Of a DNA stretch of 64,000 nucleotides, positions 16,789 to 61,305 are shown piece after piece. The translations under genes were made by a program, and so were the position numbers. This DNA comes from Rhodovulum tesquicola (GTDB lineage: Bacteria; Pseudomonadota; Alphaproteobacteria; Rhodobacterales; Rhodobacteraceae): NCBI RefSeq assembly GCF_024128855.1, contig NZ_JAMYDV010000004.1, forward strand, positions 1 to 64,000. The letters run 5' to 3'. Each line of letters begins with the position of its first letter. Position 1 is the stretch's first letter. The notes beneath the pieces were generated by a model, which saw only the letters and a program-made list of their open reading frames with translations, was not told the origin of the DNA and searched no databases.

Positions 16789-16811
16789 TCCCGGTCCCGC
16801 CGTGGAACCAC

Positions 16812-16841: not shown

Positions 16842-16854
16842 CCTGCGCCCTGCC

Positions 16855-19468: not shown

Positions 19469-19490
19469 CGCCCCGCCGCCCCGAATGACC

Positions 19491-19517
19491 GGCCCCGGCC
19501 ACAGCGCCGGGGCCTTT
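19491..19517 (+). terminator. Terminator between convergent mcd and recO
   Basis: GGCCCCGGC (19491-19499) pairs with GCCGGGGCC (19506-19514), followed by TTTCCTTTT. Confidence 0.8.
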
Positions 19518-19527
19518 CCTTTTCGGG

Positions 19528-20256: not shown

Positions 20257-20276
20257 CCGCGCGCGCGCCCTTGCCC

Positions 20277-20300
20277 CTTCTTCTTGGAAAAAATACCCAA
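20277..20300 (+). repeat. Dispersed 24-bp repeat, copy 2
   Basis: CTTCTTCTTGG then AAAAAATACCCAA; identical to copy 3 (31891-31914, other strand). It lies in the 57-bp gap between the DUF1491 and recO genes, antisense to their transcription. Confidence 0.8.
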
Positions 20301-20313
20301 ATCCTGCGGCCCG

Positions 20314-20646: not shown

Positions 20647-20715
20647 GCTGGCCTCTGGCCCCTGCCGCCACGCACGCTAGGTTCGCATTGATACGTCCAT
20701 AGACGAAAGCCCCCC

Positions 20716-20949
20716 ATGCTGGTCCTGCCGCGCTTCTCGAAACCGATCATCGCCGCCGCCATCGTGCTTGACATCATGGTGTTCCCCATGGGCCTGCGCG
20801 CCCTTCCGCTGGTGGTGCTGATGCTACTGGCCAATCTGGCGGTCTGCCTCGTGGTCTACTGGGCGATCCTCGGACATTTCTTCGCGCCAAAGCCGGGGGC
20901 GGATTCGGATCAGTCGCCGTCGCGGAAATCGAGCCCCATTTCCGAGTAG
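20716..20949 (+). CDS. Small two-helix membrane protein, hypothetical
   Basis: A 77-residue frame with one or two hydrophobic helices (IIAAAIVLDIMVFPMG and ALPLVVLMLLANLAVCLVVY) and a polar tail. The hydrophobic pattern is unlike a random shadow frame, which supports a real gene. The ribosome binding site is weak. Its last 40 bp overlap the 3' end of era on the opposite strand. Function unknown. Confidence 0.5.
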   Translation: MLVLPRFSKPIIAAAIVLDIMVFPMGLRALPLVVLMLLANLAVCLVVYWAILGHFFAPKPGADSDQSPSRKSSPISE

Positions 20950-45616: not shown

Positions 45617-46116
45617 TCCGTCCGATCCTGCAATGGCCCGACCCAAGGCTTTCACGCCCCGCCGCCCCGGTCGAGACGATCACCGACGAGATCCGCGCCC
45701 ATTGGGCGGACATGATCGACACGATGGAGGCGATGCCGGGACAGGGTGTGGGCCTTGCCGCGCCGCAGATCGGGGTCATGCTGCGGCTGGCGGTCGTGGA
45801 TTGCTCGGACAGCCGCGGCCAGGCCGTGCGCATGGCCAATCCCGAGATCGTCGCTTCCTCGTCCGCGCTGAACGCCCATGACGAGGCCAGCCCCTGCCTG
45901 CCGGGCGTATGGGCCGAGATCACGCGCCCCGCGCGGGTGACGGTGCGCTTCCTGAACGACAGCGGCCAACCCGAGGAACGCGCGTTTGCCGAGCTTTGGG
46001 CCACTTCGGTCCAGCACCAGATCGACCATCTGGATGGCCGGATGTATTTCGACAACCTGTCACGCCTGAAACGCGACCGGCTTCTGAAAAAGGCCGCCAA
46101 GCTGGGGCGGGGCTGA
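45613..46116 (+). CDS. Peptide deformylase-like protein 3, degenerate active site
   Basis: A 167-residue third paralogue. Motif 1 is intact ([10 protein letters not shown]) but motif 2 reads EASPCLPG instead of EGCLS-x-PG, and motif 3 is HQIDHLDG, with Gln for the catalytic Glu. The His ligands and a Cys are kept. The frame is intact and coupled to its neighbours by ATGA and TGATG overlaps, so it is not a decaying pseudogene. It may bind metal and substrate without ordinary catalysis, or have another role. Confidence 0.9.
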
Positions 46117-47015
46117 TGCGCGTCGTCTTCATGGGCACGCCCGATTTCTCGGTGCCGGTGCTCGATGCGCTGGTCGCCGCGGGCCACCGGATCGCCGCCG
46201 TCTATTGCCAGCCCCCCCGCCCCGCAGGGCGCGGCAAGAAGGATCGCCCCAGCCCCGTGCAGGCCCGGGCCGAGGCGCTGGGGCTGCCCGTTCGCCATCC
46301 GAAATCGCTGAAGGGCGCCGAGGCGCAGGCCGAATTCGCCGCGCTGGGCGCCGATATCGCGGTCGTGGTCGCCTATGGGCTGATCCTGCCGCAACCGGTG
46401 CTGGACGCGCCCCGGCTGGGCTGTCTGAACATCCATGCCTCGCTGTTGCCGCGCTGGCGGGGGGCGGCGCCGATCCACCGGGCGATCATGGCGGGCGACG
46501 CGGAAACCGGCATCTGCATCATGCGGATGGAGGCGGGGCTGGATACCGGCCCCGTCCTGCTGCGCGAGGCAACACCCATAGGGGCGCAGGAAACCATCGG
46601 CGAGTTGCACGACCGGCTGTCCGCCATGGGCGCGCGGCTGATCGTGCAGGCGCTGGAGCGGCTGCCCGAGTTGACGCCCGAGACCCAGCCCGAGGCGGGC
46701 GTCACCTATGCCGACAAGATCGACAAGGCCGAGGCGCGGGTGGACTGGACCCGCCCGGCCGCCGAAATCGCACGCCAGATCAATGGGCTCTCGCCCTTTC
46801 CCGGCGCATGGTGCATGGCGGGGGACGAACGGCTCAAGCTGTTGCGCGCCCGGGTGGACGAGGGCGACGGCGCGCCCGGCCAGGTGCTGGATCGCCTGAC
46901 CATCGCCTGCGGATCGGGCGCGGTCGCCATCCTCGAAGCCCAGCGCGAGGGCAAGCGGCCCATGTCGGCGGACGAGATCCTGCGCGGATTGACGCTGCCC
47001 GAACGGCTGGATTGA
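46116..47015 (+). CDS. fmt: Methionyl-tRNA formyltransferase
   Basis: A 299-residue enzyme that formylates initiator Met-t[58 protein letters not shown] (SLLP motif with catalytic Asn/His) and the C-terminal OB domain are present. It starts one base into the deformylase 3 stop (TGATG), so formylation and deformylation are co-expressed. Confidence 0.96.
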
Positions 47016-47126
47016 TCGCCCCGCGCCGGGGGCCTTCCGGACAGGGGCGTTTTCGCGACAGTGCCGCCGGGCTATACAGGCAGGGTCAGGTCGAATTAGA
47101 CGCAGGTCGGGCAGGGGAGGCCGGGC

Positions 47127-47654
47127 ATGACCGGAACGGAGGAGGGGACGGCCGAGCCGCGGATCGCCGCTTTTCCCATTGCCGCGGGGGTTTCGGTCGA
47201 TACCCTTCTGGCGGGACTGGTGGCGGCGCTGCAGGCCGAGGGCTGGCGGCTGGCGGGGTTCCGGCAGACCGGGCTTGCGGATGGCGGCATGGCGGTCGTG
47301 GCCCTGTCGGATGGCGCGGTGTTCGGGATTTCGCAGGCCCTGGGGCCGGGCGCGACAGGCTGTCGCCTCGATCCCCGGGGTCTTGCCGAGGCGGCAGGCG
47401 CGGTACTTGTGGCGCTCGATGCCGGGGCCGATCTGGTCGTCCTGCCGCGCTTCGGCAAGGCCGAGGCCGAAGGCGGCGGCTTCCGCACGGTGATCGAGCG
47501 TGCCTGCGCTTGCGGTATCCCCGTGCTGGTCGCGGTGCGCCCCGACTGCGCCACCGCATGGGAGGCATTCACCGGCGGGCTTGCACACAACCTGCCGCCC
47601 GAGCCGCAGGCCCTGCTGGGCTGGTGCCGCGCGGCGCTGCCGGTCCGCGCCTGA
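47127..47654 (+). CDS. DUF2478 family protein
   Basis: A 175-residue protein. AFPIAAGVSVDTLLAGLVAA, WRLAGFRQTG and DLVVLPRFGKAEAEGGGFRT match DUF2478, a family with a P-loop-like fold but no clear Walker A here (AAGVSVDTL). DUF2478 proteins often lie near molybdate or nitrogenase genes; no such gene is here. Function unknown. Confidence 0.75.
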   Translation: MTGTEEGTAEPRIAAFPIAAGVSVDTLLAGLVAALQAEGWRLAGFRQTGLADGGMAVVALSDGAVFGISQALGPGATGCRLDPRGLAEAAGAVLVALDAGADLVVLPRFGKAEAEGGGFRTVIERACACGIPVLVAVRPDCATAWEAFTGGLAHNLPPEPQALLGWCRAALPVRA

Positions 47655-47677
47655 CCGCAAGGGGGCCGCGCGGGGTC

Positions 47678-48418
47678 TCAGGCCGGAAGGGTGGCAAGAA
47701 GGCGTTCCATCGCCCCGATCCGGGCCGCCGGTGCCGGATGGGTCGCCAGGAATTCCGGCGCGCGCGCGCCACCGGCCAGTTCCATCTGCTGCCAGAGCGT
47801 GACCGCCTGCCGCCCCTCGTAGCCCGCGCCGACCATCGCCCGGACGCCGAACTCGTCGGCTTCAAGCTCCTGGTTGCGCGAATAGGGCAACAGCAGCCCG
47901 ACCTGCGCCCCCAGCCCCAGCGCCGCGGTTATCACATCGGCATTGCCCACATTGCTTGCGCCCAGCATCCCGCCGATAAGCCGCAGCCCGGTTTCGGTCG
48001 CAACCTCGGCGCTGATGCGTTCCTCGGGGTGGTTGGCCAGAAGATGCCCGATCTCGTGACCGATCACGGCGGCAAGCTGGTCGGGCGTGCGGGCGACGCG
48101 GAACATGCCTTCGTAGACGCCGATCTTGCGCCCCGGCAGGGCAAAGGCGTTGATCTCGGGCGAGGCAAAGACCTGCACCTCCCACGCGCCTGTCGGCTCG
48201 CCCAGATGGGTCAGCAGCCGCCGCGAGACCTGTTGGGCCGAGGACTGGAACCCGGTATCGCGCGACAGCGGCTGTTGCGCGCGCAGTTCCGACCAGGCGC
48301 GCAGCCCCATCGCCTCGACCTCGGACGAGGACACCAGCGCGGGCGGCACCCCGACGCAGCCCGAAAGCGACAGCACCGATCCGGCGGCGGTGGTGGCAAG
48401 AAAGCGGCGGCGGGTCAT
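47678..48418 (-). CDS. M48 family metalloprotease, lipoprotein
   Basis: A 246-residue zinc protease. AAVIGHEIGHLLANHPEERI contains the HExxH zinc site, and NQELEADEFGVRAMVGAGYE the third ligand. The start ATG at 48418 gives RRRFLATTAAGSVLSLSGC, a twin-Arg-like signal with lipobox LSGC. It probably acts in the periplasm in envelope quality control, like BepA/YfgC-type relatives. Confidence 0.9.
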   Translation of the reverse strand: MTRRRFLATTAAGSVLSLSGCVGVPPALVSSSEVEAMGLRAWSELRAQQPLSRDTGFQSSAQQVSRRLLTHLGEPTGAWEVQVFASPEINAFALPGRKIGVYEGMFRVARTPDQLAAVIGHEIGHLLANHPEERISAEVATETGLRLIGGMLGASNVGNADVITAALGLGAQVGLLLPYSRNQELEADEFGVRAMVGAGYEGRQAVTLWQQMELAGGARAPEFLATHPAPAARIGAMERLLATLPA

Positions 48419-48578
48419 ACAGCAACAGGCCAAGGCGATATCCTCACAGGATGCATGCGCCGGCGGGTGCAGCCTGCGGCCCGCCCGGCATGCACCCTAG
48501 ATAGGCACCGCCCCCCCGGATCGTCCAGTGGGGATCGCTTCGGCGATGCAGCCTTTTGCCGATCCTGCCCGGGATCCC

Positions 48579-49220
48579 TTATCCCGCTCCGGGCTGCCCC
48601 GACGGCACGATCCGGCCTTTGTCCATCACGGCCAGACAATCCGCCTCGGCCGTCGCCTCGTCCCGGTCATGGGTGACGACAAGCATTGTCAGGCCGGTGC
48701 GCTCACGGATCTGCCGCAAGAGCTGCCACAAGGCGCGGCGCGGTTCGGCATCGAGCACCGCAAAGGGTTCGTCGCACAGCAGCAGATCAGGCTCCACCGC
48801 CAGCGCACGCGCCAGCGCCACGCGCTGACGCATGCCCCCCGAAAGCTGGCGGGGGAATTTCCCCGCATCGCCGGGGTCCAGCCCGACCGCCTCCAGCATC
48901 GCCCGGGCGCGCGCGCGCCGCTCTGCCCGGCCAAGGCCCAGCCCGCGCAGCGCGAAGCCGACATTGCCCAGCGCCGTCTTCCAGGGCAGCAGCGCGGGGT
49001 CCTGGAACACGATCCCCAGCCGGGCACAGCGCCGCGCGACCCGGCCCGCATCGGGGGTCAGCAGCCCCGCGGCCAGCGCGATCAGCGTGCTCTTGCCGCA
49101 GCCCGACGGCCCCATCAGCGCGGTGATCGTGCCCGCGCGCAGCGACAGGTCAAGCCCGCGCAGCACCGGCTTGCCGTCATGGGCAAACTCGACACCCTCA
49201 AGGCGCAGCGGCGCGGTCAT
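48579..49220 (-). CDS. ABC transporter ATP-binding protein (nitrate/sulfonate/taurine type)
   Basis: A 213-residue ATPase: Walker A MGPSGCGKSTLIALAAGLLT, Q-loop IVFQDPALLPWKTALGNV, signature RQLSGGMRQRVALARALAVE, Walker B LLLCDEPFAVLD and the H-loop VVTHDRDEA. It partners the permease (4-bp overlap) and the binding protein upstream, last in the hydrogenase operon. Confidence 0.92.
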   Translation of the reverse strand: MTAPLRLEGVEFAHDGKPVLRGLDLSLRAGTITALMGPSGCGKSTLIALAAGLLTPDAGRVARRCARLGIVFQDPALLPWKTALGNVGFALRGLGLGRAERRARARAMLEAVGLDPGDAGKFPRQLSGGMRQRVALARALAVEPDLLLCDEPFAVLDAEPRRALWQLLRQIRERTGLTMLVVTHDRDEATAEADCLAVMDKGRIVPSGQPGAG

Positions 49221-49990
49221 GCCCCCACGCCCCGCCCATCGTCGCGCCAATGGACCATGCGGCGCTGAAGCGGCTGCAACAGCGCCAGATCGACCGCGAC
49301 CAGCACCGCCACCACGACCAGCACCCAGCCCATCATCGCGGCCGTATCGACATGGGCGCGCGCGGTGGCCAGCCCGTCGCCGATGCCGCCCGCACCGGCC
49401 AGCAACTCGGCCATGACCGACACCTTCCAAGACATCGCCAGCGTCGTGGCCAGCGCGGGAAAGACATGGACCAGCATATGCGGCAGGTGCATGTGGGCCA
49501 GCCTTGCGCCAAGGGGCACGCGGAACGCCTGCGCCATCCGGATCAGCCCGCCATCAAGGCTGTGAACCCCGGCCACGGCGGCGGCAAAGACCAGCGGGCC
49601 GGTTGCCACGGCCACGGTGAACACGACCGCCCAGCGCCCGCCGAACCACAGAAGCGCCAGCACCACCCAGGCAATCGCGGGGATCCCCAGCAGCACCACC
49701 GCGACCGGCTGCAACGCCCGCTGCGCCTCGGGACGCAGGCCCGCGAGCGTCCCGGCGATCATTCCCGCCGCCGCGCCCGCGGCCCAGCCCATCCCGGCAT
49801 TCCCGGCGGTCTGGGCCAGCGCGGGGGCAACCATGCCCTCTGCAATCATGCGCCATAGGGTTACGCCCGTCTCGGCCAGACCGGGCAGCACCAGCGGCCC
49901 CCAGATGCGATGCCCGGCCTCCCAAAGGACCAGCAACAGGGCAAGGCCCGCAAGGCTCCAGAGCCGGGAGGGAGGGCGTTTTCGCGCCAT
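49217..49990 (-). CDS. ABC transporter permease (SsuC/TauC-like)
   Basis: A 257-residue membrane protein with about six segments. The EAA loop is LARTMHLPHMLVHVFPA-like (HLPHMLVHVFPALATTLAMS, with a typical ALATT end). WSLAGLALLLVLWEAGHRIW starts the first helix. The imported compound is unknown. It lies 6 bp after the binding-protein gene. Confidence 0.9.
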   Translation of the reverse strand: MARKRPPSRLWSLAGLALLLVLWEAGHRIWGPLVLPGLAETGVTLWRMIAEGMVAPALAQTAGNAGMGWAAGAAAGMIAGTLAGLRPEAQRALQPVAVVLLGIPAIAWVVLALLWFGGRWAVVFTVAVATGPLVFAAAVAGVHSLDGGLIRMAQAFRVPLGARLAHMHLPHMLVHVFPALATTLAMSWKVSVMAELLAGAGGIGDGLATARAHVDTAAMMGWVLVVVAVLVAVDLALLQPLQRRMVHWRDDGRGVGA

Positions 49991-49996
49991 GTGACC

Positions 49997-50977
49997 CTAG
50001 CCCCAGTAGAAATCGGCATCGGGCAGGCGGTTCGCGACGATGCCCGGGGCCAGCGTCATGAGGTGCTGGAAATAGGTCTCGATATCCTGCTGCGCCTGCC
50101 GCGCGCTGGCCACGCCCAGCCGCACGAAGGGCAGCGACCGGGCGACGATCTCGGGCGCAAGACCCAGATGCGGCGCGGCCAGCGCGCCCGCCGCCACCGG
50201 CTCGGCCTGCGCCCAATCGGCGGCCTCGATACAGGCGGCATGGGCGGCGGCGACGACTTCGGGCGCGCTGTCCAGAAACTCGGCGCTGACCGCCAGCCCC
50301 ACCTGCGGAATCCGCGGGCCGCGCCCGGTATGCCGGCCATAGATCTCGGCGATGTCGAGCGCGCGGATCATGGGCAAGCCTTCGCGTTCGGCACGGATCT
50401 GCGCGGTCGTGGCGGCCGGTTCATGCAGCAGCGCCACATCGCCCCGCCCGGCCAGGAACAGCGGCACCGCCTCGCCGGGCGAGCCGACATAGTCGAGCCG
50501 TAGATCGCGGTCGGGGTCCAGCCCGGCCCAGCCCAGCACCATGCGGAACAACAGATCCGGCGCCTCGTTCTTGTTCGACAGCAGCACCCGGCGGCCCGCG
50601 AGATCCGCGATCGAGCGGATGCGGTCATCGCGCGCCATGACATGAAGCACGCCCCAGGTCACGACATTGATCATCCGCGTGCCCGCCCCGCGATTGAAGA
50701 AATTGGCCGCGGCATAGGTGGAACTGGCAAACAGCCGGAACGCGCCCGAGGCGATGCCCGCGCGCAACTGGTCGGTGCTTTTCCAGATCTCGAACCGCGC
50801 GCCGGGCGCGGCCCTCTGGAACCGCTCGGACGCCACCGCCCCGGCAAATACCGCCGAAGGCGTGCCCGGAATACCCCAGAGCGTCAGCGGCTCCGCCCCC
50901 CGCGCCGGGGCCGCAAGGGGCAGCGCGGCCAGTCCGGCCACCACCGCGCGGCGGTCGAAACAGGGCCTCCGGGTCAA
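49997..50977 (-). CDS. ABC transporter substrate-binding protein, NMT1/THI5-like
   Basis: A 326-residue protein. The start is TTG at 50977, overlapping the hydrogenase stop as TTGA. It gives MTRRPCFDRRAVVAGLAALP, a twin-Arg signal peptide ending near PARGAEP. The mature protein has the SRPBCC-unrelated NMT1-like blocks ELWGIPGTPS-type (LTLWGIPGTPSAVFAGAVAS), SIADLAGRRVLLSNKNEAPD and GRGDVALLHEPAATT. The coupling to an [FeFe]-hydrogenase gene is unusual. The ligand cannot be told from sequence. Confidence 0.85.
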   Translation of the reverse strand: MTRRPCFDRRAVVAGLAALPLAAPARGAEPLTLWGIPGTPSAVFAGAVASERFQRAAPGARFEIWKSTDQLRAGIASGAFRLFASSTYAAANFFNRGAGTRMINVVTWGVLHVMARDDRIRSIADLAGRRVLLSNKNEAPDLLFRMVLGWAGLDPDRDLRLDYVGSPGEAVPLFLAGRGDVALLHEPAATTAQIRAEREGLPMIRALDIAEIYGRHTGRGPRIPQVGLAVSAEFLDSAPEVVAAAHAACIEAADWAQAEPVAAGALAAPHLGLAPEIVARSLPFVRLGVASARQAQQDIETYFQHLMTLAPGIVANRLPDADFYWG

Positions 50978-52827
50978 TAGACCATCGTGCTCATGGTGAT
51001 GTCGTCCCAGATCTCCTTGACGGTATGCTTCAGCTCGCGTCGGCGATCCTCGTAGCTCGTATGCAGCAATTGGTGCGCAAGTTCCGAGTTCGGCGCGCCC
51101 AGGAAATCGCGATACAGCGCCTGCACCTGCGGGTTGTTGTGCGACTGGCGCACGCGGGCCGCGCGGTCGACCGAATAGATGGTTTCGCGCCGTTTCTGGG
51201 CCAGCGGCAGATACGCCTTTTTCGAGCGCAGCGACCCGCCCCCATCGACGCAGCCGCCGGGGCAGGCCATCACCTCGATGAAATCGTAATCGGCCCTGCC
51301 TGCCAGCACCGCCTCCACCAGCGCGCGCGTGTCGCCAAGCCCGTGGACCATCGCCACCCTGACCTCGCCCACCTGCCCGCCCAGATCGACGCGGGCCTCG
51401 CGGATGCCCTCGAAGCCGCGCAACTGGGTCAGTTCGATCTGCTCCAGCTCGCGTCCGTTGACGATGGCATAGACGGTGCGCAGCGCGGCCTCCATCACAC
51501 CGCCGGTGGTGCCGAAGATGGCACCCGCGCCGGAATATTCGCGCAAAAAGGGGCTGTCGAAGCCCGAGGGTTCCAGCGTCTTCAGGTCGATCCCCTCGCG
51601 GCGCAGCAGGCGCGCGAATTCGCGGGTGGTCAGCACCAGATCCGTATCGGGCCGCCCGTCCCGCGCCAGTTGCGGGCGCGTCGCCTCCTCTTTCTTGGCG
51701 ACGCAGGGCATGACCGAGATCACGCGGATCCGATCCGGCGCGACGCCCAGTTTTCCGGGCAGCCAGGTCTTGGCAATGGCCGACAGCACCTGTTGCGGCG
51801 ACCGGGTCGAGGACAGAAGCGGCAGCAGCTCGGGGTAATGGATCTCGGCAAAGTCGATCCAGGCCGGGCAGCACGAGGTAAAGGTGGGCCGCCGCCCCGC
51901 CTTGAGCCGGCCCAGCAACTCGGCGCCTTCCTCCATGATGACGACGTCGGCGGCGAAATTGGTGTCCAGCACCACGTCGAAGCCGAGCTTGCGGCAGGCG
52001 GTGGCGATATGGCCCTCGACATTGGTGCCGGGGCGCATGCCGAATTCCTCGCCAAAGGCGACGCGCACGGCGGGGGCGAATTGCACCACCGTCACAAGGT
52101 CGGGGTCGCAGATGTAGTCGATGGCCCGGTCGGTCTCGTCGCGTTCGCCCAAGGCGCCGGTGGGACAGACCAGCACGCATTGCCCGCAGGACACGCAGGC
52201 CGACGAGGGGTAATCCTCGGCGCCCCGCAGCGCCACCAGCCGGTCAAGCCCGGTGCCCTCCATCGCCAGCGCGTCGACCTGCTGGTGATGGCGGCAGATC
52301 GCGACGCAGCGCTGGCAGCGCACGCAGCGGCGCATGTCGCGCACCATCGCGGGCGAGGTCAGGTCGATGGGCCGCGCCTCGGTCCGGGCGCGGTCGAAGA
52401 AGCGGTTTTCCTTGAGACCCACGAACTGCGCCAGATCCTGCAATTCGCAATCGCCATGCCGGATGCAGGTCGCGCAATCCTGCAAATGGTCGGCCATCAG
52501 CAGTTCCACCTGCAAGCGCTGCATGTCGCGCGCGCGCTTGCTGCGGGTCCGCACCTCCATCCCGTCGCGGATGGGCGTGTTGCAGGCGGTCACGATCTGC
52601 GGCGCGTCATGGCCGGCCTGCACGATCTCGACCACGCAGACGCGGCAGGTGCCGGGGGTGTGGTCGATGTCGTCCAGTTCGCACAGCGTCGGGATATAGA
52701 TGTCATGCCGCCGCGCGCAGGACAGGATGGTTTCGTTCGCCCGGCCGGTGCAGGGCGTCCCGTTGAGGATCAGCGCCACGGTCTCGGGCGCGTCGGGGCC
52801 GGGTGTGTCGGGGCCGGAGGTGCACAT
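50974..52827 (-). CDS. hydA: [FeFe]-hydrogenase, group A, M3-type with full accessory clusters
   Basis: A 617-residue enzyme. N-terminal [2Fe-2S] domain (C49, C61, C64, C82), His-ligated [4Fe-4S] (H114, C118, C121, C127), two ferredoxin [4Fe-4S] sites (C168-C178; C211-C221). The H-cluster domain has TSCCPAW (C319 proton relay, C320 ligand), VMPCVAKKEE (C375), and EVMACPGGCVDGGG (C522, C526). The C-terminal small-subunit-like region is at 545-590. All residues for H2 turnover are present; only Gly is Ala in TSCCP(A)W. Maturases HydE, HydF and HydG are not in this window. It is 3 bp after the flavoprotein gene. Confidence 0.93.
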   Translation of the reverse strand: MCTSGPDTPGPDAPETVALILNGTPCTGRANETILSCARRHDIYIPTLCELDDIDHTPGTCRVCVVEIVQAGHDAPQIVTACNTPIRDGMEVRTRSKRARDMQRLQVELLMADHLQDCATCIRHGDCELQDLAQFVGLKENRFFDRARTEARPIDLTSPAMVRDMRRCVRCQRCVAICRHHQQVDALAMEGTGLDRLVALRGAEDYPSSACVSCGQCVLVCPTGALGERDETDRAIDYICDPDLVTVVQFAPAVRVAFGEEFGMRPGTNVEGHIATACRKLGFDVVLDTNFAADVVIMEEGAELLGRLKAGRRPTFTSCCPAWIDFAEIHYPELLPLLSSTRSPQQVLSAIAKTWLPGKLGVAPDRIRVISVMPCVAKKEEATRPQLARDGRPDTDLVLTTREFARLLRREGIDLKTLEPSGFDSPFLREYSGAGAIFGTTGGVMEAALRTVYAIVNGRELEQIELTQLRGFEGIREARVDLGGQVGEVRVAMVHGLGDTRALVEAVLAGRADYDFIEVMACPGGCVDGGGSLRSKKAYLPLAQKRRETIYSVDRAARVRQSHNNPQVQALYRDFLGAPNSELAHQLLHTSYEDRRRELKHTVKEIWDDITMSTMVY

Positions 52828-52830
52828 GGC

Positions 52831-54813
52831 TCAGACCGCTCCTTCGGGGATGGGATGGCCGGTAAGGACCGTGTAGACGCGATAGCAGCGCATGCAACGC
52901 TGCGCCTCGGCATAGGCGGCCCTGGCGCTGATCGTCTGCTCGACCTCCTCGAACATGCGCTTGCGCAATTCGGGGTCGAGTTCGGGATTGTGCACGCGAT
53001 AGGCGTTGCGCACCGGCGTCTCGACCACGTCATTGGCCAGGAAATCGTTGTCGGCGATCAGCTTGCGCATGCGCGCACGCTTGTAGAACCTGACCGAACC
53101 GCGCTGGATCCAGTCGTCGATATTGCGCGCAGCCTTCAGCCCGTCGGCCATCGCCCAGATCAGCGTCGAGGGGCCGGTGACGCAATCGCCCCCCGCAAAG
53201 ACACCGGGCCGCGAGGTGGTGAGCGCATCATCCGCGGCCACGCAGCGCCAGCGGTCCAGCGCGATGCCGTCCGCCTCGATCCGGCTGCCATCCTCGACCT
53301 GCTGGCCGATGGCCGCGATCAGCGTGTCGCAGGGCAATGTCACCTCGCTGCCGGGGATGGGGCGGACCTTGCGCCGGCCGCTGTCGTCAGGCTCGCTCTG
53401 TTCCATCTGCGCGACCACGACGCCGGTGACGCGGCCCGCCTGGGTCAGCACGCGGACCGGGTTGCAAAGCGTGTGAAAGGTCACGCCCTCGGCCTCGGCA
53501 TCCGCGATCTCGCCGGGATCGGCGGGCATGTCCTCGCGGGTGCGGCGGTAAAGGACATGCACGCGCCCCGCCCCCAGCCGGATCGCCGAGCGCACGCAAT
53601 CCATCGCGACATTGCCCCCGCCCACCACCAGCACCTCGCCCGACAAGGACAGCGGCGCAGCCCCCGCAACATGATCGTGAACCCGCAGAAGGAAGTCGAT
53701 GCCGCTGAAATAGCCCGCGCGCGCCTCGTCCTCGCCCGCAACCCCCAGCCGCGAGCCCGCCTGGCAGCCGAGCCCCAGGAACACCGCCCGGTAGCCGCGC
53801 GCGAACAGATCGTCGATATCGAAGTCGCGCCCCAGCTGCTGGCCGAACAGGAAGCGCCCGCCCAGATCGGCGATGATTTCGGTTTCCAGCGCCAGCGTGT
53901 CCTTGGGCAGCCGGTAGGCGGGAATGCCGATCTGCGCCATCCCGCCCGCCTGGCTTGCCTTGTCGAACACATCGACATGATAGCCGCGCAGCAGCAGATG
54001 ATAGGCGCAGGAAATGCCCGCCGGACCCGCACCGACCACCGCCACCCGCATGGCCGGATCCAGCGGCTTGCGGATCATGTCGCGGGTGAATTCCAGCGCG
54101 TTCGGGCCGCTTTGCTGGTCGGCGACAAAGCGTTTCAGGGTCTTGATCCCCACCGCCTCGTCCACGAACTTGCGCCGGCAGGCCTGTTCGCAATAACGCA
54201 CGCAGACCCGCCCGCAGGTCGCCGCCATCGGATATTTCTGCAACAGAACCCCCAGCGAGTTCTCGGGCTTGCCGTCGCGGATATAGTCGATATAGCGCGG
54301 CACGTTGACCTTGGAGGGGCAGGCCTCGATGCAGGGGGCGGTCATGTAGGCCATGCCATGCTGGGCGCGGATCGGCCGCTTCGGGGCCAGTTCCTCCTCG
54401 ATCCGGCCGCGGAAATGGCCCAGCGCGTCCAGCAGCGCCACCGAACAGGTCTGGCCCAGACCGCAAAGCGACGTTTCGCGCATCTGCTCGCCCAGCATCG
54501 CGATCTGATTCAGATCCAGCGGTGCATCCAGCCCGCGCCGCATCGCGTCCAGCGCGTCGCGCACCAGCACCGTGCCCATACGGCAGGGCGTGCAGACGCC
54601 GCAGGATTGTTCGGCCGCCTTGCGCATGTAGTGGTAAAGCGCGTCCACAAGGCTGACGCTTTCATCGAACACGAAGAAACCTCGGTCGCCGAAAAAGGCG
54701 CGGATCGGGTTGCCCTCGTCGAACTCGTCGAAATTGCGGGGCTCAAGGGTGGCTTGCCCCGCCTGCCGGTCATGGACGACCCCGTCCCAGACCCCATAGG
54801 CCACCTGTGTCAT
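52831..54813 (-). CDS. NuoF-type Fe-S domain fused to GltD-like FAD/NAD(P)H oxidoreductase
   Basis: A 660-residue fusion. Residues 55-140 match only the C-terminal [4Fe-4S] part of NuoF: EQSCGVCTPCRMGT (C71, C74, C77) and SLCGLGQTC (C117); the FMN/NADH domain is absent. Residues 155-235 form the GltD [4Fe-4S] domain (C161, C165, C200, C204, C208, C212). FAD binding is at 256-285 (GAGPAG) and NAD(P)H binding at 395-425 (VVGGGNVAMD). It probably passes electrons between NAD(P)H and the hydrogenase, as in NfnB/HydB-like partners. It starts at the ATG at 54813 after GGAAAGGAG. Confidence 0.9.
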   Translation of the reverse strand: MTQVAYGVWDGVVHDRQAGQATLEPRNFDEFDEGNPIRAFFGDRGFFVFDESVSLVDALYHYMRKAAEQSCGVCTPCRMGTVLVRDALDAMRRGLDAPLDLNQIAMLGEQMRETSLCGLGQTCSVALLDALGHFRGRIEEELAPKRPIRAQHGMAYMTAPCIEACPSKVNVPRYIDYIRDGKPENSLGVLLQKYPMAATCGRVCVRYCEQACRRKFVDEAVGIKTLKRFVADQQSGPNALEFTRDMIRKPLDPAMRVAVVGAGPAGISCAYHLLLRGYHVDVFDKASQAGGMAQIGIPAYRLPKDTLALETEIIADLGGRFLFGQQLGRDFDIDDLFARGYRAVFLGLGCQAGSRLGVAGEDEARAGYFSGIDFLLRVHDHVAGAAPLSLSGEVLVVGGGNVAMDCVRSAIRLGAGRVHVLYRRTREDMPADPGEIADAEAEGVTFHTLCNPVRVLTQAGRVTGVVVAQMEQSEPDDSGRRKVRPIPGSEVTLPCDTLIAAIGQQVEDGSRIEADGIALDRWRCVAADDALTTSRPGVFAGGDCVTGPSTLIWAMADGLKAARNIDDWIQRGSVRFYKRARMRKLIADNDFLANDVVETPVRNAYRVHNPELDPELRKRMFEEVEQTISARAAYAEAQRCMRCYRVYTVLTGHPIPEGAV

Positions 54814-54913
54814 GGCGCACTCCTTTCCGGGGACGGCCAGCGACACCGCCCCTGTCGCCCCGAACCTCGCGCGGCGGGACCGGCCCCGCCATGATCCAGC
54901 GCAAGGACAGGGG

Positions 54914-56785
54914 TCAGAGCGGCCAGACCACCAGCAGAAGCGGCAGGCTGACCACGACCACCAGAATCTCCAGCGGCAGGCCAAGCCGCCAGTAATCGCC
55001 AAAGCGAAAGCCGCCGGGACCCAGTATCAGCGTGTTGTTCTGATGCCCGATGGGGGTCAGGAACGCGCAGGAGGCCCCGATCGCCACCGCCATCAGAAAG
55101 CTGTCGGGATTGACACCGAGCGCCGCGGCGATGCCCAGCGCGACCGGGCACAGCACGGCGGCGGTGGCGGCGTTGTTCATCACGTCCGACAGGAACATCG
55201 TCGTCACCAGCACCACCGCCAGCGCTGCGACGGCATTGCCCTGCGCTATGGTCTCGACCAGCACGCGCGCCAGCAGATCGGCCGCACCCGTTGCCTGCAT
55301 CGCACCCGCCACCGGGATCAGCGCGCCCAGCAGCACGATCACCGGCCAGTCGATCGCGGAATATACCTGCCGGGGCGGCACCGTGCGCAGCAGCATCGAG
55401 GCCAGGACCCCGAGCGCAAAGGCCGGGGCCGCGGGCAGAAGACCCAGCGTGACAAGGGCAACGGCGCCCAGCATGATCGCGCCCGCGATGATCGCCATGC
55501 GCTTGTCGGGGATGCGCAGTTCCCGCTCGCGCAGGGGCACGCAGCCGGTATCGTTGACGAAATCGGCCATCACCTCGGCCGGCCCCTGCATCAGCAACAG
55601 ATCACCCGAGCGGATCCGCAGCGACCGCAGCCGGGTCGGCGGCGGCCGCCCCTCGCGCGAGACGGCCAGCAGGTTCAGCCCGAACCGCGTGCGCAGCCGA
55701 AGATCGGTAGCCGATCGTCCCACGATGCTGGACCCCGGCAGAACGGCCAGTTCCCGCAGCACGATATCCTCGTCTCGGTCCGGCTTGTCCTCGGCGCTCT
55801 CCTCGTCATGCTTGCCTGCGCCATCTTCCGCGACGTCCTGCGGTCGCGACCCGGGCGCCGTGTCGCCTGCCTCTTCCGAGGATGGACCCTGCTCCTCCAG
55901 TTCGATGCCGAACAGCGCCAGCGCCTCGGCCAGTCCCTCGACATCGGCATCCAGAACCAAGATGTCGCCCGCGCGGATGCGTCGGCCGCCATGCGGGGCG
56001 GTGATGCGGACCTCGTTGCGCACGAGGCCGACCACCTGCGCGCCGCTCTCCTCGATCTCGCGTTCGAAGCCGCGCAGGGTCAGGTGAACGGCCTTGCTCT
56101 TTTCGGGCACGCGCACCTCGGTCAGATAGGTGCCGGTATCGAACGCCTCGCCCGTGGCCGATTTGCGCGCGGGCACCAGCCGCCAGCCGACCAGCACCAC
56201 GAACAGCACGCCCGCCAAAGCCACCGCAACGCCCACGGGCGCGAAATCGAACATGCCGAAATGCCCCGGCCCCGCCTCGGCGCGAAAGCCCGAGACGATC
56301 AGGTTCGGCGGCGTGCCCACCAGCGTCGTCATGCCGCCCAGGATCGTGCCGAAGGCCAGCGGCATCAGCACCTGCCCCGGCATCAGGTCCAGCCGCCCGG
56401 CAAGCTGCACCGCGACCGGCATCAACAGTGCCATGGCGCCGACATTGTTCATGAACCCCGACAGCGCAGCACCCAGCCCCATCAGCGCGGCCATGCTGGC
56501 CAGTCGCCCGGCCTCGCGCGGCAGAACGCTGCGCGCCAGCCAGTCCACCGCACCGGTGGTCTGCAGCCCGTGGCTCAGCACCAGCACGCAGGCCACCGTG
56601 ATCACCGCCGGATGGCCGAATCCCGCAAAGGCGTCCGTGGCCGGAACGACGCCCGCGACGACGCAGGCCAGAAGTGCCGCCAGCGCCACCACGTCATGGC
56701 GATAGCGCCCCCACAGGAACGCCGCCAGCGTGGCGCCAAGGATTGCGAAGATCAGGAACTGGTCGGCGCTCACGGCCCCCTCCAT
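54914..56785 (-). CDS. SLC13 family permease with RCK_C domains
   Basis: A 623-residue inner-membrane transporter with about twelve segments. It is a CitMHS/SLC13-like carrier: SGFMNNVGAMALLMPVAVQL and MNNAATAAVLCPVALGIAAA are the two inverted halves, each with an N-N motif. Two TrkA-C/RCK_C domains lie between them, separated by an acidic linker of about 40 residues (EEAGDTAPGSRPQDVAEDGA and onward). Substrates in the family are sulfate, dicarboxylates or similar anions. It lies 63 bp after phnE2 and 100 bp before the flavoprotein gene. Confidence 0.88.
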   Translation of the reverse strand: MEGAVSADQFLIFAILGATLAAFLWGRYRHDVVALAALLACVVAGVVPATDAFAGFGHPAVITVACVLVLSHGLQTTGAVDWLARSVLPREAGRLASMAALMGLGAALSGFMNNVGAMALLMPVAVQLAGRLDLMPGQVLMPLAFGTILGGMTTLVGTPPNLIVSGFRAEAGPGHFGMFDFAPVGVAVALAGVLFVVLVGWRLVPARKSATGEAFDTGTYLTEVRVPEKSKAVHLTLRGFEREIEESGAQVVGLVRNEVRITAPHGGRRIRAGDILVLDADVEGLAEALALFGIELEEQGPSSEEAGDTAPGSRPQDVAEDGAGKHDEESAEDKPDRDEDIVLRELAVLPGSSIVGRSATDLRLRTRFGLNLLAVSREGRPPPTRLRSLRIRSGDLLLMQGPAEVMADFVNDTGCVPLRERELRIPDKRMAIIAGAIMLGAVALVTLGLLPAAPAFALGVLASMLLRTVPPRQVYSAIDWPVIVLLGALIPVAGAMQATGAADLLARVLVETIAQGNAVAALAVVLVTTMFLSDVMNNAATAAVLCPVALGIAAALGVNPDSFLMAVAIGASCAFLTPIGHQNNTLILGPGGFRFGDYWRLGLPLEILVVVVSLPLLLVVWPL

Positions 56786-56848
56786 CCGGTCCTTGCCCGA
56801 GGGGACCAGATCGGCGGTCCGGCTGCAATCGTCCTTTCGCCGCGCGCC

Positions 56849-57670
56849 TCAGATGATCGCGTGCCGCACCCGGGCCGAGACCCATTCGCTGACCACGACG
56901 GTCGCCAGGATCACCAGGATGATCAGCGTGACCTGCGGCCAGGCCAGCACGTTCAGGCTGGCCTGAAGCTGCGCCCCGATGCCACCCGCGCCCACCAGCC
57001 CGAGGATCGCGCTTTCGCGGATGTTGATATCCCAGCGGAACACCGAGATGCCGTAGAAACTGGGCAGCACCTGCGGCACGATCCCGTAATTCAGGATCTG
57101 CGCCTTGGTCGCCCCGGTGGCGGTGATCGCCTCGATCTGGGCGATATCCGTCTCCTCGATCGCCTCGTAAAGCAGCTTGCCGATGAAGCCGACCGAGCGG
57201 AAGCCGATGGCAAGGATCCCCGCAAGGATCCCGGGGCCCAGGATCGACACCAGCAGCAGCGCCCAGATCAGCGAGTTGATCGAGCGGCTGGCCACGATGC
57301 AGAACAGCGCGACGGGCCGCAGGATCATCCGCGAGGGCGTGGTGTTCGAGGCCGCCAGGAAGGCCAGCGGAACCGCCAGCACGATGCCCAGCAGCGTGCC
57401 CAGCGTGGCGATGTTGATCGTGTCCCACAACGGCTGCCAAAGCCTGTCCATATAGGACCAGCGCGGCGGCCAGGCGCGGCTGGCCAGATCAGCCGCGGCA
57501 TGGGGCGCGTCATAGACGAAGACCCACATCGTGCGTTCCGTCATGATGTTCCAGCACCAGACGAACAGCGCGACCAGCCCCAGCCAACCGGCATAGATCG
57601 CCAGCCGGCCAAGCGGGGTGCGGTGGTGCCAGACGGGACGTTCGGCGGCGGGAATGTCGATCACGCTCAT
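56849..57670 (-). CDS. phnE: Phosphonate ABC transporter permease (second PhnE)
   Basis: A 273-residue permease. LGIVLAVPLAFLAASNT, SRSINSLIWALLLVSILGPG and [17 protein letters not shown] are PhnE blocks (binding-protein-dependent permease). Start ATG at 57670 overlaps the upstream phnE stop (ATGA). Two PhnE permeases form a heterodimeric channel in this arrangement. Confidence 0.93.
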   Translation of the reverse strand: MSVIDIPAAERPVWHHRTPLGRLAIYAGWLGLVALFVWCWNIMTERTMWVFVYDAPHAAADLASRAWPPRWSYMDRLWQPLWDTINIATLGTLLGIVLAVPLAFLAASNTTPSRMILRPVALFCIVASRSINSLIWALLLVSILGPGILAGILAIGFRSVGFIGKLLYEAIEETDIAQIEAITATGATKAQILNYGIVPQVLPSFYGISVFRWDINIRESAILGLVGAGGIGAQLQASLNVLAWPQVTLIILVILATVVVSEWVSARVRHAII

Positions 57671-58506
57671 TGCACCCACCTGCGCAGATAGCCCGAGGAA
57701 TATTCCGAGATCATCACGATGGCGATGATGATGAGCAGCACCGCCCCCGCGCTGTCATATTCATAGCGGTTCAGCGCGGTGTTCAGCGTCGCCCCGATCC
57801 CGCCCGCGCCGACGATGCCGATCACGGCAGATTCGCGGAAATTGATGTCGAGCCGGTAGAGCGACAGCCCGATCAGTCGCGGCATGACCTGCGGCTGGAT
57901 CGCGTAGTTGATCAACTGGAACCACGAGGCGCCGGTCGCCCGGATCGCCTCGGCCTGGGATTCGTCGATATCCTCGATATCCTCGGCCAGCAGCTTGCCG
58001 ATGAAGCCGATGGTGGCAAAGGTCAGCGTCAGGAACCCCGCAAAGGCGCCAAAGCCGAACAGCGCCACGAAGAAGATCGCGACGATGATTTCCTGCAACG
58101 CGCGGGAAACGGCGATGATCCCGCGGCAGATCGCATAGATCCAGCCCGGGGCGACATTGCGCGCCGCGCCGATGCCGATGGGGATCGAGATCAGGACGCC
58201 GACCACGGTCGAGGTCAGCGTCATCGTCAGGCTCTCGATCAGCCCGGTAGAGATGTCGCGCCAGCGGGTGGTGAAATCGGGCTGAAGGAACCCCGCGATG
58301 AAGCGCTGGCCGCGCTCCATCCCGACCATGACGCGCTGCCAGTTCACCTCGATGGTGCCAAGCGCCAGCACCAGCCAGACCAGCGCCCCGATGGCAAGCG
58401 CATAGCGCCAGAAGCGCGACTTGATCATCTGCGGCGGGCGCTTCCACCGCGTCGGATAGGGGCCCGGGGACACGCCCGGGGACACGGGGGCGGCGGTGTC
58501 GGTCAC
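57667..58506 (-). CDS. phnE: Phosphonate ABC transporter permease (first PhnE)
   Basis: A 279-residue permease. [40 protein letters not shown] and [17 protein letters not shown] mark PhnE. It overlaps phnC by 4 bp at its start and the second phnE at its end, so all three are translationally coupled. Confidence 0.93.
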
Positions 58507-59330
58507 AGCGCCCTCATCATCTTCTTGGCCTCGTCGCGCTGTTCGGCCTCGGCGGCCTCGTCCTCGGCGGCGGCCTGGCGCATCGCGGTCCAGTCCTCCT
58601 CGCCATAGATCTGGGTCAGGACCGCCTCGGTCAGCCCCGTTGCCGGACCGTCGAAGACCACCCGGCCCGCCTGCAACCCGATGATCCGGTCGGCGAATTG
58701 CTGGGCCAGGACCACGTCATGGATGTTGATGATCGCGGGCAGGCCGCTTTCGCGGCAGATCTCGACGATCAGCCGCATGATCTGGCGGCTGGTCTTGGGG
58801 TCGAGGCTCGCGGTGGGTTCATCCACCAGCAGCAGCTCGGGATCCTGTTCCAACGCCCGGGCGATGCCCACCCGCTGGCGCTGCCCGCCCGACAGCGCAT
58901 CGGCGCGCTTGTCGGCATGGGCCGACAGGCCGACGCGATCGAGCAGGCGAAACGCCTTGGCAATGTCCTCGCCCGGGAAGCGGCGGGTGAAGCTGCGCCA
59001 GAACGGCACGTAGCCCAGCCGCCCGGACAGCACGTTCTCCATGACCGTCAGCCGTTCGACGAGGGCGTATTCCTGAAAGATCATCCCGATCCGCCGCCGC
59101 GCCCGGCGCAGTTCGCCCGCGCGCAGGCGCGTGATGTCCAGATCGTTCAGCCGCACCGTCCCCTCGGTCGGCTCCACCAGCCGGTTGACACAGCGGATCA
59201 GCGTGGACTTGCCCGCGCCCGACGGCCCGATCAGCCCCACGACCTGCCCCTTTGGCACGGTAAAGCTGACATCGGTCAGCGCCTTGTCGCCGGTCTTGTA
59301 GACCTTGGTCAGCTTGTCGACGGTCAGCAT
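58503..59330 (-). CDS. phnC: Phosphonate ABC transporter ATP-binding protein
   Basis: A 275-residue ATPase with Walker [22 protein letters not shown]-loop [18 protein letters not shown], signature [20 protein letters not shown] and Walker [29 protein letters not shown] is typical for PhnC. C-terminal extension of about 40 residues is acidic. It powers import of phosphonate or other phosphorus compounds through the two PhnE permeases. Confidence 0.94.
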
Positions 59331-59398
59331 GGGGCCTCCGTTCGGGACAGGGAAAACGGCAGGCGAGGGGCGCCTGCCATGCGCATGTTAACAACGGG

Positions 59399-59575
59399 TC
59401 AGTTGCAGGTGTGACTGATGCCGGTCGCGGCACCGAACTCGCGCAGCACCGACCGGTGTTCCTGAAAGGTGATGGGCATGAACTCGTCCATGTCGAAGGG
59501 TGCGCAAGCAGCCCCATGCGCCACACCGGCATGCATGGCCGGCGCTGCCACCGAGGTGACGCGGGTCTTCATCAT
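59399..59575 (-). CDS. 58-residue ORF repeating the C-terminus of PhnD
   Basis: The frame starts with two ATGs (59575) after GGGAGA, 7 nt upstream. Its last 30 residues align with the last 30 of PhnD, 15 identical by hand: EFMPITFQEHRSVLREFGA against QFIPITFKDNWSVIREIDA, both ending TCN. The first 28 residues have no signal peptide and include a Cys. It lies between phnD and phnC. It is either a remnant of a duplicated phnD or a small translated protein; the good ribosome binding site supports translation. No function known. Confidence 0.55.
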   Translation of the reverse strand: MMKTRVTSVAAPAMHAGVAHGAACAPFDMDEFMPITFQEHRSVLREFGAATGISHTCN

Positions 59576-59594
59576 GGTCGTTCTCCCTGACCGG

Positions 59595-59650
59595 GCCGGC
59601 GGGACAGTCCCGCCGGCACGACGCCTTGGCCGGGGCGCACAGCCCCGGTC
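59595..59650 (-). terminator. Double hairpin after phnD
   Basis: GCCGGCGGGAC, A, GTCCCGCCGGC at 59595-59617 is an 11-bp perfect stem; GGCCGGGGC at 59628-59636 pairs with GCCCCGGTC at 59642-59650. No U-tract follows. Such intercistronic hairpins commonly reduce downstream expression, leaving the binding protein in excess over the transporter. Confidence 0.6.
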
Positions 59651-59666
59651 CGTGACATTCCTGGTG

Positions 59667-60614
59667 TCAGTTACAGGTGTATTGCACGCCCATGGCTGCA
59701 TCAATCTCGCGGATCACCGACCAGTTGTCCTTGAAGGTGATCGGGATGAACTGCGCCTCGCCCGAGCGCTCGAACTCGGCCTGCAGTGTCGTGCCTTCCC
59801 AGTCGAAGCTGAAGAACGCCTCGCGCACCTTTTCCTGCAGGTCGGGATGCAGGTTGTAGACCGTGCCGTAGCCGGTGGTGGGGAAGGTGTCGGACTGGTA
59901 GATCACGACCAGTTGATCCTCGGTAATCACGCCACGGTCAAGCATCCGCGCCTTCACCGAGTTGGCGATGGCGGCGGCATCGTAATCCTTGTTCGCGACG
60001 CCAAGGATCGAGTTGTCATGCGCGCCCGAGAAGGCCGGGGTGAAATCGGCGCCGGCTTCCATGCCATATTGCGCCGCCAGCAGCGCCGAAGGAGCCTTGA
60101 ACCCCGAGTTGGAGGTCTCGGAGGTGAAGGCCATGGTGCGGCCCTTGATGTCCTCGACCTTCTCGATGCCCGAACCGGGATAGGTGATGAACTCCATCTC
60201 GTAGCCGAAGCTGCCATCGGCGGCGGCCATCATGGCAAAGGGACGGAAACCCGCACAGGCCACCGCCAGCGGGTTCGAGCCGGTGTTGAAGCCCGCCACA
60301 TGCAGACGGCCCGCGCGCATCGCCTCGATCTGGGCGGCGTTGGACTGGACCGGGAAGAACTGCACCGGCTTGCCGGTCACGGCCTCCATATGGGTCAGGA
60401 AATCCGACCAGGCTTCGGCATAGACGGACGGGTCCTCGACCGGCGTGTAGGCGAAGATCAGGACCGAGGGGTCAATCCACTGGGCGGCATCCTCGGGGAT
60501 GTCGGCGATCAGGTCGCCATCGGCATCGGAGAAGCGCGCATCAAGCTGGAAGGCGGCGGCGGGCAGCGCCAGCACGGCGGACAGGGCGACGGTCGAGAAG
60601 AGACGTGCGATCAT
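59667..60614 (-). CDS. phnD: Phosphate/phosphite/phosphonate ABC transporter binding protein
   Basis: A 315-residue PhnD-like periplasmic protein. Signal peptide MIARLFSTVALSAVLALPAA with cleavage near AAAFQ. Mature blocks include IFAYTPVEDPSVYAEAWSDF, HVAGFNTGSNPLAVACAGFR and FTSETSNSGFKAPSALLAAQ, the ligand-binding Ser-Thr loop. The C-terminus ends YTCN. It is first in the phn operon, 74 bp downstream of a Pho box. The exact ligand (phosphonate, phosphite or phosphate) is not clear from the sequence. Confidence 0.92.
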   Translation of the reverse strand: MIARLFSTVALSAVLALPAAAFQLDARFSDADGDLIADIPEDAAQWIDPSVLIFAYTPVEDPSVYAEAWSDFLTHMEAVTGKPVQFFPVQSNAAQIEAMRAGRLHVAGFNTGSNPLAVACAGFRPFAMMAAADGSFGYEMEFITYPGSGIEKVEDIKGRTMAFTSETSNSGFKAPSALLAAQYGMEAGADFTPAFSGAHDNSILGVANKDYDAAAIANSVKARMLDRGVITEDQLVVIYQSDTFPTTGYGTVYNLHPDLQEKVREAFFSFDWEGTTLQAEFERSGEAQFIPITFKDNWSVIREIDAAMGVQYTCN

Positions 60615-60687
60615 TGGACGAGACCTCGGAATTGGAAGGGACTGCCCGGCGGGTAGTCTGGCCATATGAAGATCCCCTGACGGTTCT

Positions 60688-60705
60688 GTTAACTTTTTAT
60701 GACAG
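60688..60705 (-). promoter_or_regulatory. Candidate Pho box before phnD
   Basis: On the minus strand CTGTCAT (60705-60699), AAAA, then AGTTAAC, the layout of a PhoB box (two 7-bp repeats with a 4-bp AT spacer). The first repeat is perfect, the second matches poorly. Phosphate-starvation control of the phn operon is likely. Confidence 0.6.
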
Positions 60706-60726
60706 ACGCCACCCGATTCGTCCGGG

Positions 60727-61305
60727 CTATTCGATCGGGGCGATGTCAAGCCGGATGCGCGCATACCAGTCCGCGGCGGCCCGGATTTCCTCGTCGGTCA
60801 TCTCGGCAGCGATTTCGGACATGATCGCATGACGGCGCTTGCCGCTGCGGAACGCCTTGAGCTGGGTGTCGATGTAGATGTTGACCTCGCCCGCAAGGTT
60901 CGGCGCATTCAGCGCGACCGAAATGCCGTCGACCCCGTGGCAGGACACGCAGGCAACCGGCGCATCGGCGGCGCTTACGCCGTCGGGCAGGGTTGCCGTG
61001 GCGACATGCGCGGCATACCAGGCAGCCACGTCGGAAATCTGCTGCGCCGACAGGCTCGTGGATACGACCGACATGATCTCGTGCTCCCGCGCGCCGGTCT
61101 TGAAGGCCATCAGCTGGGCCTCGATATACTCCTTCGGCTCGCCGCCGATATGGGGCGCGATCGGGACCTGCGCGTAGCCGTCCAGCCCATGACAGGTCCG
61201 GCACATGTTCGCGACCTGCCGTCCGGCCTCCGGATCCTCGGCCAAGGCAGGGCCGCCCCCGGCGAGCGCAAGCCCGCCGAGGACGAAAGGCACCGAAAGC
61301 CGCAT
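60727..61305 (-). CDS. Diheme cytochrome c (c4-like), periplasmic
   Basis: A 192-residue protein with signal peptide MRLSVPFVLGGLALAGGGPA and two CxxCH heme sites, NMCRTCHGLDGY (about residue 35) and ACVSCHGVDGI (about 118). Two similar halves indicate a c4-type tandem cytochrome. It overlaps the dehydrogenase stop by one base (TAATG), so it is probably the electron acceptor of that enzyme. Confidence 0.9.
   Translation of the reverse strand: MRLSVPFVLGGLALAGGGPALAEDPEAGRQVANMCRTCHGLDGYAQVPIAPHIGGEPKEYIEAQLMAFKTGAREHEIMSVVSTSLSAQQISDVAAWYAAHVATATLPDGVSAADAPVACVSCHGVDGISVALNAPNLAGEVNIYIDTQLKAFRSGKRRHAIMSEIAAEMTDEEIRAAADWYARIRLDIAPIE

Follow-up and report, generated by a model that had tools for sequence, protein, structure and literature searches.

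A clade of [FeFe]-hydrogenases in Rhodovulum and relatives with an intact H-cluster pocket and no HydE, HydF or HydG above cut-off

A 64,000-nucleotide stretch of the Rhodovulum tesquicola genome (contig NZ_JAMYDV010000004.1, positions 1 to 64,000; hereafter the window) encodes the catalytic subunit of an [FeFe]-hydrogenase, HydA, together with a flavoprotein and an ATP-binding cassette (ABC) importer. This HydA belongs to a clade of 19 whose 17 searched genomes yield no match above cut-off to the maturases HydE, HydF and HydG. Purifying selection acts on the clade HydAs, and the residues of their H-cluster pocket and proton path are unchanged. We see two serious ways to read a pocket that stays intact although no maturases are found: either the [2Fe] subcluster comes from another source, or HydA has changed its function in a way that still needs every pocket residue. 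We tentatively favour the first, a functional NAD(P)H-linked, non-bifurcating hydrogenase of the A2 type that would obtain its [2Fe] cofactor by a route other than HydEFG.

The operon consists of five minus-strand genes, arranged head to tail and tightly packed:

52831-54813, minus strand: flavoprotein, 660 amino acids, with a NuoF-type 4Fe-4S cap and a GltD/NfnB-type unit (2x[4Fe-4S], flavin adenine dinucleotide (FAD) and NAD(P)H).
50974-52827, minus strand: HydA, 617 amino acids, M3-type [FeFe]-hydrogenase catalytic subunit with a C-terminal small-subunit region.
49997-50977, minus strand: substrate-binding protein with a twin-arginine (Tat-like) N-terminus and an NMT1/SsuA/PqqT-like fold.
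49217-49990, minus strand: ABC transporter permease, named in part from Pfam matches of its relative in locus L016.
48579-49220, minus strand: ABC transporter ATPase, named on the same basis.

The TTG start of the binding-protein gene overlaps the hydA stop codon. The ATPase gene presumably begins with an ATG that shares bases with the stop codon of the permease gene.

The host genome has 3,518,664 bases, is 99.92% complete and encodes one HydA, which shares 99% identity with the Rhodovulum steppense HydA. An initial annotation of the window had described the host as a probable aerobic alphaproteobacterium. The class stands, while "aerobic" is imprecise for Rhodovulum, a genus of anoxygenic phototrophs (PMC9412634). 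HydA is rare in the host's family, where 2 of 394 genomes (393 genera) carry it, both from Rhodovulum; in the host's class it occurs in 24 of 385 genomes.

Scanning the genomes of named species yielded 42 HydA loci, or 43 with the window (G004 and G789 are the same genome and were counted once). On the tree the A2 group holds 40 of these loci: 19 in one clade that includes the window (support 100/100), 19 comparison loci and two from doubtful bins of metagenome-assembled genomes (MAGs). Members of the clade come from Rhodovulum, Rhodopseudomonas, Cohaesibacter, Tropicimonas, Aliiruegeria and Rhodobium, and their HydAs are 73-99% identical to one another. The sister group is formed by 11 loci of the Pleomorphomonas group, which we used for comparison along with Roseiarcus, Rhizomicrobium and four relatives, Oleispirillum and one MAG. 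The doubtful bins, a Verrucomicrobium MAG (L037) and an Eisenbacteria MAG (L038), carry an A2-type HydA, have no maturases above cut-off and stand outside the clade counts. Three distant loci were left out, two from Riflebacteria with maturases (L051, L052) and one from a 0.9 Mb MAG without (L053).

Models for HydG, HydE and HydF were run over 43 genomes, with matches listed at E-values of 1e-3, 1e-20 and 1e-25, respectively. The search covered the genomes of 17 of the 19 clade loci, including the host of the window (L017 and L050 fall outside it). In none of these 17 genomes did any of the three profiles score above its cut-off. The initial annotation had reported no HydEFG in the window; this extends to the whole near-complete genome, where all three models stay without a match above cut-off. 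Its ordinary GTPases match the HydF model below cut-off (best 69.5 bits), and the HydG model, which in E. coli detects a relative as well, finds zero candidates there. Three Cohaesibacter genomes contain weak matches to the HydG model (23-28 bits, cut-off 312). In the comparison loci the same models score 264-648 bits, with HydE and HydF above cut-off in 19 of 19 and HydG in 18 of 19. HypD occurs in 12 of the 17 clade genomes and is absent in five, among them that of the window.

Three gene arrangements around HydA or maturase genes were seen in passing. An aspartase-like lyase gene, named by eye, stands between hydF and hydG in a Pleomorphomonas (L147:8604-12678, minus strand), and a Lyase_1 gene between hydE and hydF in L042. 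In L025, an alphaproteobacterial MAG within the clade, Hox/Hyp-like [NiFe]-hydrogenase genes, also named by eye, lie directly downstream of the HydA module (12295-21812).

We mapped 22 CpI positions (ligands, [2Fe] contacts and the proton path, which we take to have these roles) through the HydA alignment. None of the 22 varies among the 19 clade loci; across the H-domain, 163 of 285 positions are invariant. Over a clade tree length of 2.32 there are 0 inferred pocket changes, whereas H-domain sites average 1.41 changes each; the comparison set has three inferred changes at the 22 positions. The ratio dN/dS of nonsynonymous to synonymous substitution rates ranges from 0.04 to 0.25 over 15 clade pairs and from 0.06 to 0.25 over six comparison pairs, all maturase-bearing. 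The initial annotation had named missing maturases combined with missing H2 activity as evidence against its reading. None of the three maturases scores above cut-off in the host genome or the searched clade genomes, but the invariant pocket argues against a dead enzyme.

Only four positions (R146, A235, C240 and S349) separate clade from comparison loci near-cleanly. Two cysteines are clade-specific, C26 (19 of 19 clade, 0 of 19 comparison loci) and C240 (18 of 19 against 0 of 19), and two are clade-enriched, C37 (19 of 19 against 7 of 19) and C278 (17 of 19 against 2 of 19). These four lie outside the known cluster ligands and are a possible extra ligand or redox site.

A second M3-type HydA, with a C-terminal SnoaL-like domain, occurs in two genomes: G588 (L146:8882-10954, minus strand), listed as 100% complete, and G796 (L145:1499-3604, plus strand), an uncultured Tropicimonas that also carries a clade HydA. 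It is 41-42% identical to the window HydA and has identical residues at all 22 pocket positions. Neither genome has HydE, HydF or HydG above cut-off, and no flavoprotein of the window kind was seen beside the SnoaL-type HydA at these loci. This supports the view that maturase-free, pocket-intact HydAs arose more than once, on the basis of two genomes.

HydA matches Fe_hyd_lg_C (286 bits), Fe_hyd_SSU (79 bits), Fer2_4, NADH-G_4Fe-4S_3 and Fer4-type domains in Pfam, that is, the full M3 set plus a small-subunit region. Against NCBIfam TIGR02512 ([FeFe] hydrogenase group A) it scores 509.9 bits, above the cut-off of 405.95. Among solved structures, CpI and two HydA1 chains come closest, the chains being 7q4v and 8a6t, the latter named as bifurcating. 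Residues C320, C375, C522 and C526 align with CpI C300, C355, C499 and C503, and C319 aligns with C299. Alignment and domain matches bear out the initial annotation, which had named the first four as the complete H-cluster ligands; its coordinates and residue numbers are correct. Membership of the NADH-dependent group A6 was dropped at 719.2 bits, below the curated cut-off of 765 for NF040763.

Sensory hydrogenases of groups C and D have an altered active-site cysteine/methionine pattern or a PAS domain. In HydA the motifs TSCCP, MPCxAKK and MACPGGC are intact and no PAS domain was found in Pfam at an E-value of 0.001, which rules these groups out. A place among sensor hydrogenases had been left open earlier; HydA is non-sensory and stands among A2-type sequences on the tree.

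The flavoprotein has the Pfam domains NADH_4Fe-4S (the iron-sulphur end of NuoF), Fer4_20 and Pyr_redox_2. The flavin mononucleotide (FMN) domain Complex1_51K (PF01512) was not found in it, and the same library detects this domain in the NuoF of a Pleomorphomonas HydABC. Hence the earlier description of the partner, the Fe-S end of NuoF joined to a GltD-like FAD/NAD(P)H unit without FMN domain, holds, and a trimmed NAD(P)H-linked hydrogenase module is supported. The match of the cap to the NuoF model TIGR01959 is weak (56.7 bits, cut-off 558.65), and the predicted structure of the flavoprotein has a low mean predicted local distance difference test score (pLDDT, 69.7). Its YRR motif is invariant and reminiscent of NADPH-binding GltD proteins, and may point to NADPH; we write the cofactor as NAD(P)H. 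The same kind of flavoprotein gene precedes HydA in 39 of the 43 loci. The other four are L033, on a truncated contig, and the distant loci L051-L053.

The initial annotation had also considered electron confurcation or bifurcation. This is not supported, since the partner has no FMN domain and none of the five genes of the operon resembles NuoE or NfnA. Bifurcation by the module is unlikely, and a HydABC or group A3 assignment was dropped; a true HydABC trimer locus is found, for example, in the Pleomorphomonas locus L148. The partner shares Fer4_20 and an FAD/NAD(P)H unit with NfnB, StnC and GltD flavoproteins (PDB 5jca, 8oh5, 9n5u and 9bov). It differs in that its unit is fused behind a NuoF cap, with no NfnA or FMN subunit in the operon.

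The pairing itself is not new. In HydDB, an adjacent GltD-type gene is already the defining mark of [FeFe] group A2, labelled "glutamate synthase-linked (putative)"; the rule asks for a gene immediately downstream with a GltD-type domain and no NuoF domain (PMC5037454). The window shares with that group a group A catalytic subunit and an adjoining GltD-type flavoprotein gene. Here, however, the partner lies upstream and has a NuoF-type 4Fe-4S cap that weakly matches NuoF, the maturases were not found, and the operon contains an ABC importer.

The binding protein and permease stand beside HydA in all 19 clade loci, with an adjoining ATPase in 18 (in L015 its best match lies elsewhere). They are also found beside HydA in nine of the 11 Pleomorphomonas-group loci, the remaining two (L033, L049) having too little flank. 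No binding-protein or permease match appears in the available flanks of the other eight comparison loci, and in H2, H4 and H7, annotated records from other phyla or classes, no such importer adjoins HydA. The importer lies downstream of HydA, or upstream in either direction. Because gene order and orientation vary, its link to HydA is not a frozen neighbourhood. Distances between HydAs and between binding proteins correlate across 17 of the 19 clade loci (r = 0.80, reached in 0 of 5000 permutations). On a midpoint-rooted binding-protein tree of the same 17 loci, seven Pleomorphomonas-group loci and seven outside relatives on long branches, the clade forms one group (100/98) that adjoins Pleomorphomonas.

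The Pleomorphomonas group has an A2-type HydA at 70-71% identity, the same flavoprotein and the same kind of importer, divergently oriented in the nine loci with enough flank. Unlike the clade genomes, its genomes contain HydE, HydF and HydG. A second HydA match occurs in 10 of the 11 (one is a contig-end fragment); in L148 it belongs to the HydABC trimer. For P. oryzae, a table in PMC4967309 lists maturases together with two HydAs of type M3.

The binding-protein family is rare, found in five of 385 class genomes at an E-value of 1e-15, the window genome among them. A twin-arginine motif is present in 24 of 24 aligned sequences. The structural model (pLDDT 91.9) finds 3hn0 as its best fold, followed by PqqT, which binds pyrroloquinoline quinone (PQQ), and SsuA. 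The operon protein shares its fold with these PqqT and SsuA-type proteins (PDB 9b1v, 2x26; also 3hn0) at just 16-22% identity.

Binding-protein matches occur in 60 plasmid records. Five were examined (L162, L163, L164, L165 and L166; from Chelatococcus, Cereibacter, Azospirillum, Agrobacterium and Shinella), and all carry cassettes of binding protein, permease and ATPase with NnrS after the ATPase. A TonB-dependent receptor adjoins the binding protein or permease in three of the five. These importer-NnrS cassettes, built from distant relatives in alphaproteobacteria outside the clade, look like an uncharacterised uptake system, and their context suggests uptake of a scarce or bulky ligand. Elsewhere, a relative of the binding protein stands beside nar genes in one cluster (L154). 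Other relatives stand beside cox genes in L155 (by Pfam) and in L156 and L157 (by eye). The L155 relative (7206-8090, plus strand; similar in L156 and L157) apparently has no signal peptide and lies between CO dehydrogenase accessory genes and an Mrp-type antiporter-like cluster, as judged by eye.

If the module is a hydrogenase, we infer that the GltD part of the flavoprotein would exchange hydride with NAD(P)H on FAD. The flavoprotein would relay electrons by way of its own [4Fe-4S] clusters and then its NuoF-type cap. They would enter HydA at the accessory clusters, and HydA would make or use H2 at the H-cluster. The [2Fe] subcluster would still be present, obtained without HydEFG. We favour this reading by a small margin because the proton path and the residues that surround CO and CN have no obvious use without the cofactor. 

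The importer is the only candidate supplier seen encoded within about 10 kilobases of HydA across the clade. Other bacteria take up cobalamin or PQQ. By analogy, the importer might take up a ready-made [2Fe] subcluster or an H-cluster precursor from neighbouring anaerobes, HydEFG having been given up. Pleomorphomonas, with importer and maturases, would then be an intermediate stage. Apo-HydA becomes active in living cells of E. coli or Synechocystis that are given [2Fe]adt (PMC6984386; for E. coli also PMC8960641), which makes an imported cofactor chemically possible. We nonetheless consider scavenging of this kind rather unlikely.

Several points weigh against a hydrogenase with another cofactor source. 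To our knowledge, HydEFG are the sole makers of the [2Fe] subcluster, and no substitute maturase was found among the neighbours common to the clade loci. Pocket invariance is partly shared descent, with 19 related sequences that are 73-99% identical; 20 of the 22 positions are invariant in the 19 comparison loci as well; and the core cavity may be kept for folding alone. Scavenging is further weakened by the plasmid cassettes, which also fit roles unrelated to hydrogenase. Pleomorphomonas has importer and maturases together, and relatives of the importer serve hydrogenase-free settings. Finally, a lack of maturases has already been noted for one alphaproteobacterial HydA, that of Rhodospirillum rubrum, which earlier authors, as cited in PMC4967309, thought probably inactive or in a different role. 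The same paper calls that protein an ancestral derivative of type M3 and places Nar1 proteins in a cluster with it. 

Among the literature matches listed, from which subscription journals are mostly excluded, we found no account of a maturase-free HydA clade in these genera, nor of a pattern that spans the clade, of the conserved pocket or of the importer link. The word "hydrogenase" is absent from the main text of the genome paper on R. tesquicola, R. steppense and R. strictum (PMC9412634).

The second serious reading is that the [2Fe] subcluster was lost with the maturases. HydA would then be a [4Fe-4S]-only protein and might act, for example, as an NAD(P)H-driven reductase of an imported compound or as a redox relay. 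Missing maturases and substitutes, the cysteines C26, C240, C37 and C278, and an importer beside every clade HydA are all consistent with it. Yet such a loss predicts drift at the [2Fe]-contact and proton residues, and these are unchanged on the whole clade tree. We regard this reading as quite possible, though short of probable.

Maturases might be present yet have escaped notice because of gaps in the assemblies, loss of plasmids or sequences too divergent for the models. In favour of this, the clade records are contig-level, HydE and HydF matches were listed only at stringent E-values, and three Cohaesibacter genomes have weak matches to the HydG model. However, three separate genes would have to be missed in 17 of 17 genomes, one of them 99.92% complete, with models that score strongly in the comparison loci. 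This is very unlikely. We give equally little credence to CO and CN ligands supplied by the [NiFe] Hyp pathway or by another radical S-adenosylmethionine (SAM) system of the host. HypD in most clade genomes and the Hox/Hyp-like genes of L025 would suit the Hyp route, but HypD is absent in five genomes including that of the window, and the HydG search there came up empty. That HydA is a decaying, functionless relic, as the lack of maturases might suggest, is scarcely credible given intact reading frames and dN/dS values like those of maturase-bearing relatives.

The HydA clade crosses orders, with the Rhodopseudomonas HydA nested among those of Rhodovulum. This indicates that the module has been transferred horizontally. 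A horizontally mobile five-gene operon of flavoprotein, HydA and importer genes is the best explanation.

A candidate FixK/FnrL-type box, TTGCGCTGGATCAT (54891-54904, minus strand), lies 91 bases before the flavoprotein start. It is weak, with one mismatch to TTG(A/C)N6(T/G)CAA, a relaxed pattern that was picked after a loose match had been seen and that we take to represent the FixK/FnrL consensus. Exact sites number six against 0.49 expected, in only five of 25 loci. With one mismatch there are 27 against 10.2, in 21 of 25. Counted over the entire window, exact sites show no enrichment (4 found, 2.36 expected). Strict FNR-type patterns are lacking before the start of the flavoprotein gene both in the window and at 25 loci (for the further loci L020 and L022 no start was found), and sigma-54 and NifA patterns in 23 loci. 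No sigma-70-like promoter was found in 48400-55200 and no Rfam match in 46000-60000. FixK/FnrL-type control of the operon is suggestive at the level of sequence patterns.

Directly upstream of the operon lies a gene for a DASS-family anion symporter-like protein (54914-56785, minus strand; TIGR00785, 135 bits, below cut-off). Farther upstream lie ABC genes that, by eye, resemble a phosphonate uptake system with two permeases, an ATPase and a binding protein (56849-60764, minus strand).

If the clade enzymes are active, then HydEFG would not be the sole natural route to the H-cluster and the view of H-cluster biosynthesis would change, as would the annotation rule "no maturases, no hydrogenase". 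Should the enzymes prove inactive, this would be a clade in which an intact H-cluster pocket stays under selection for another purpose.

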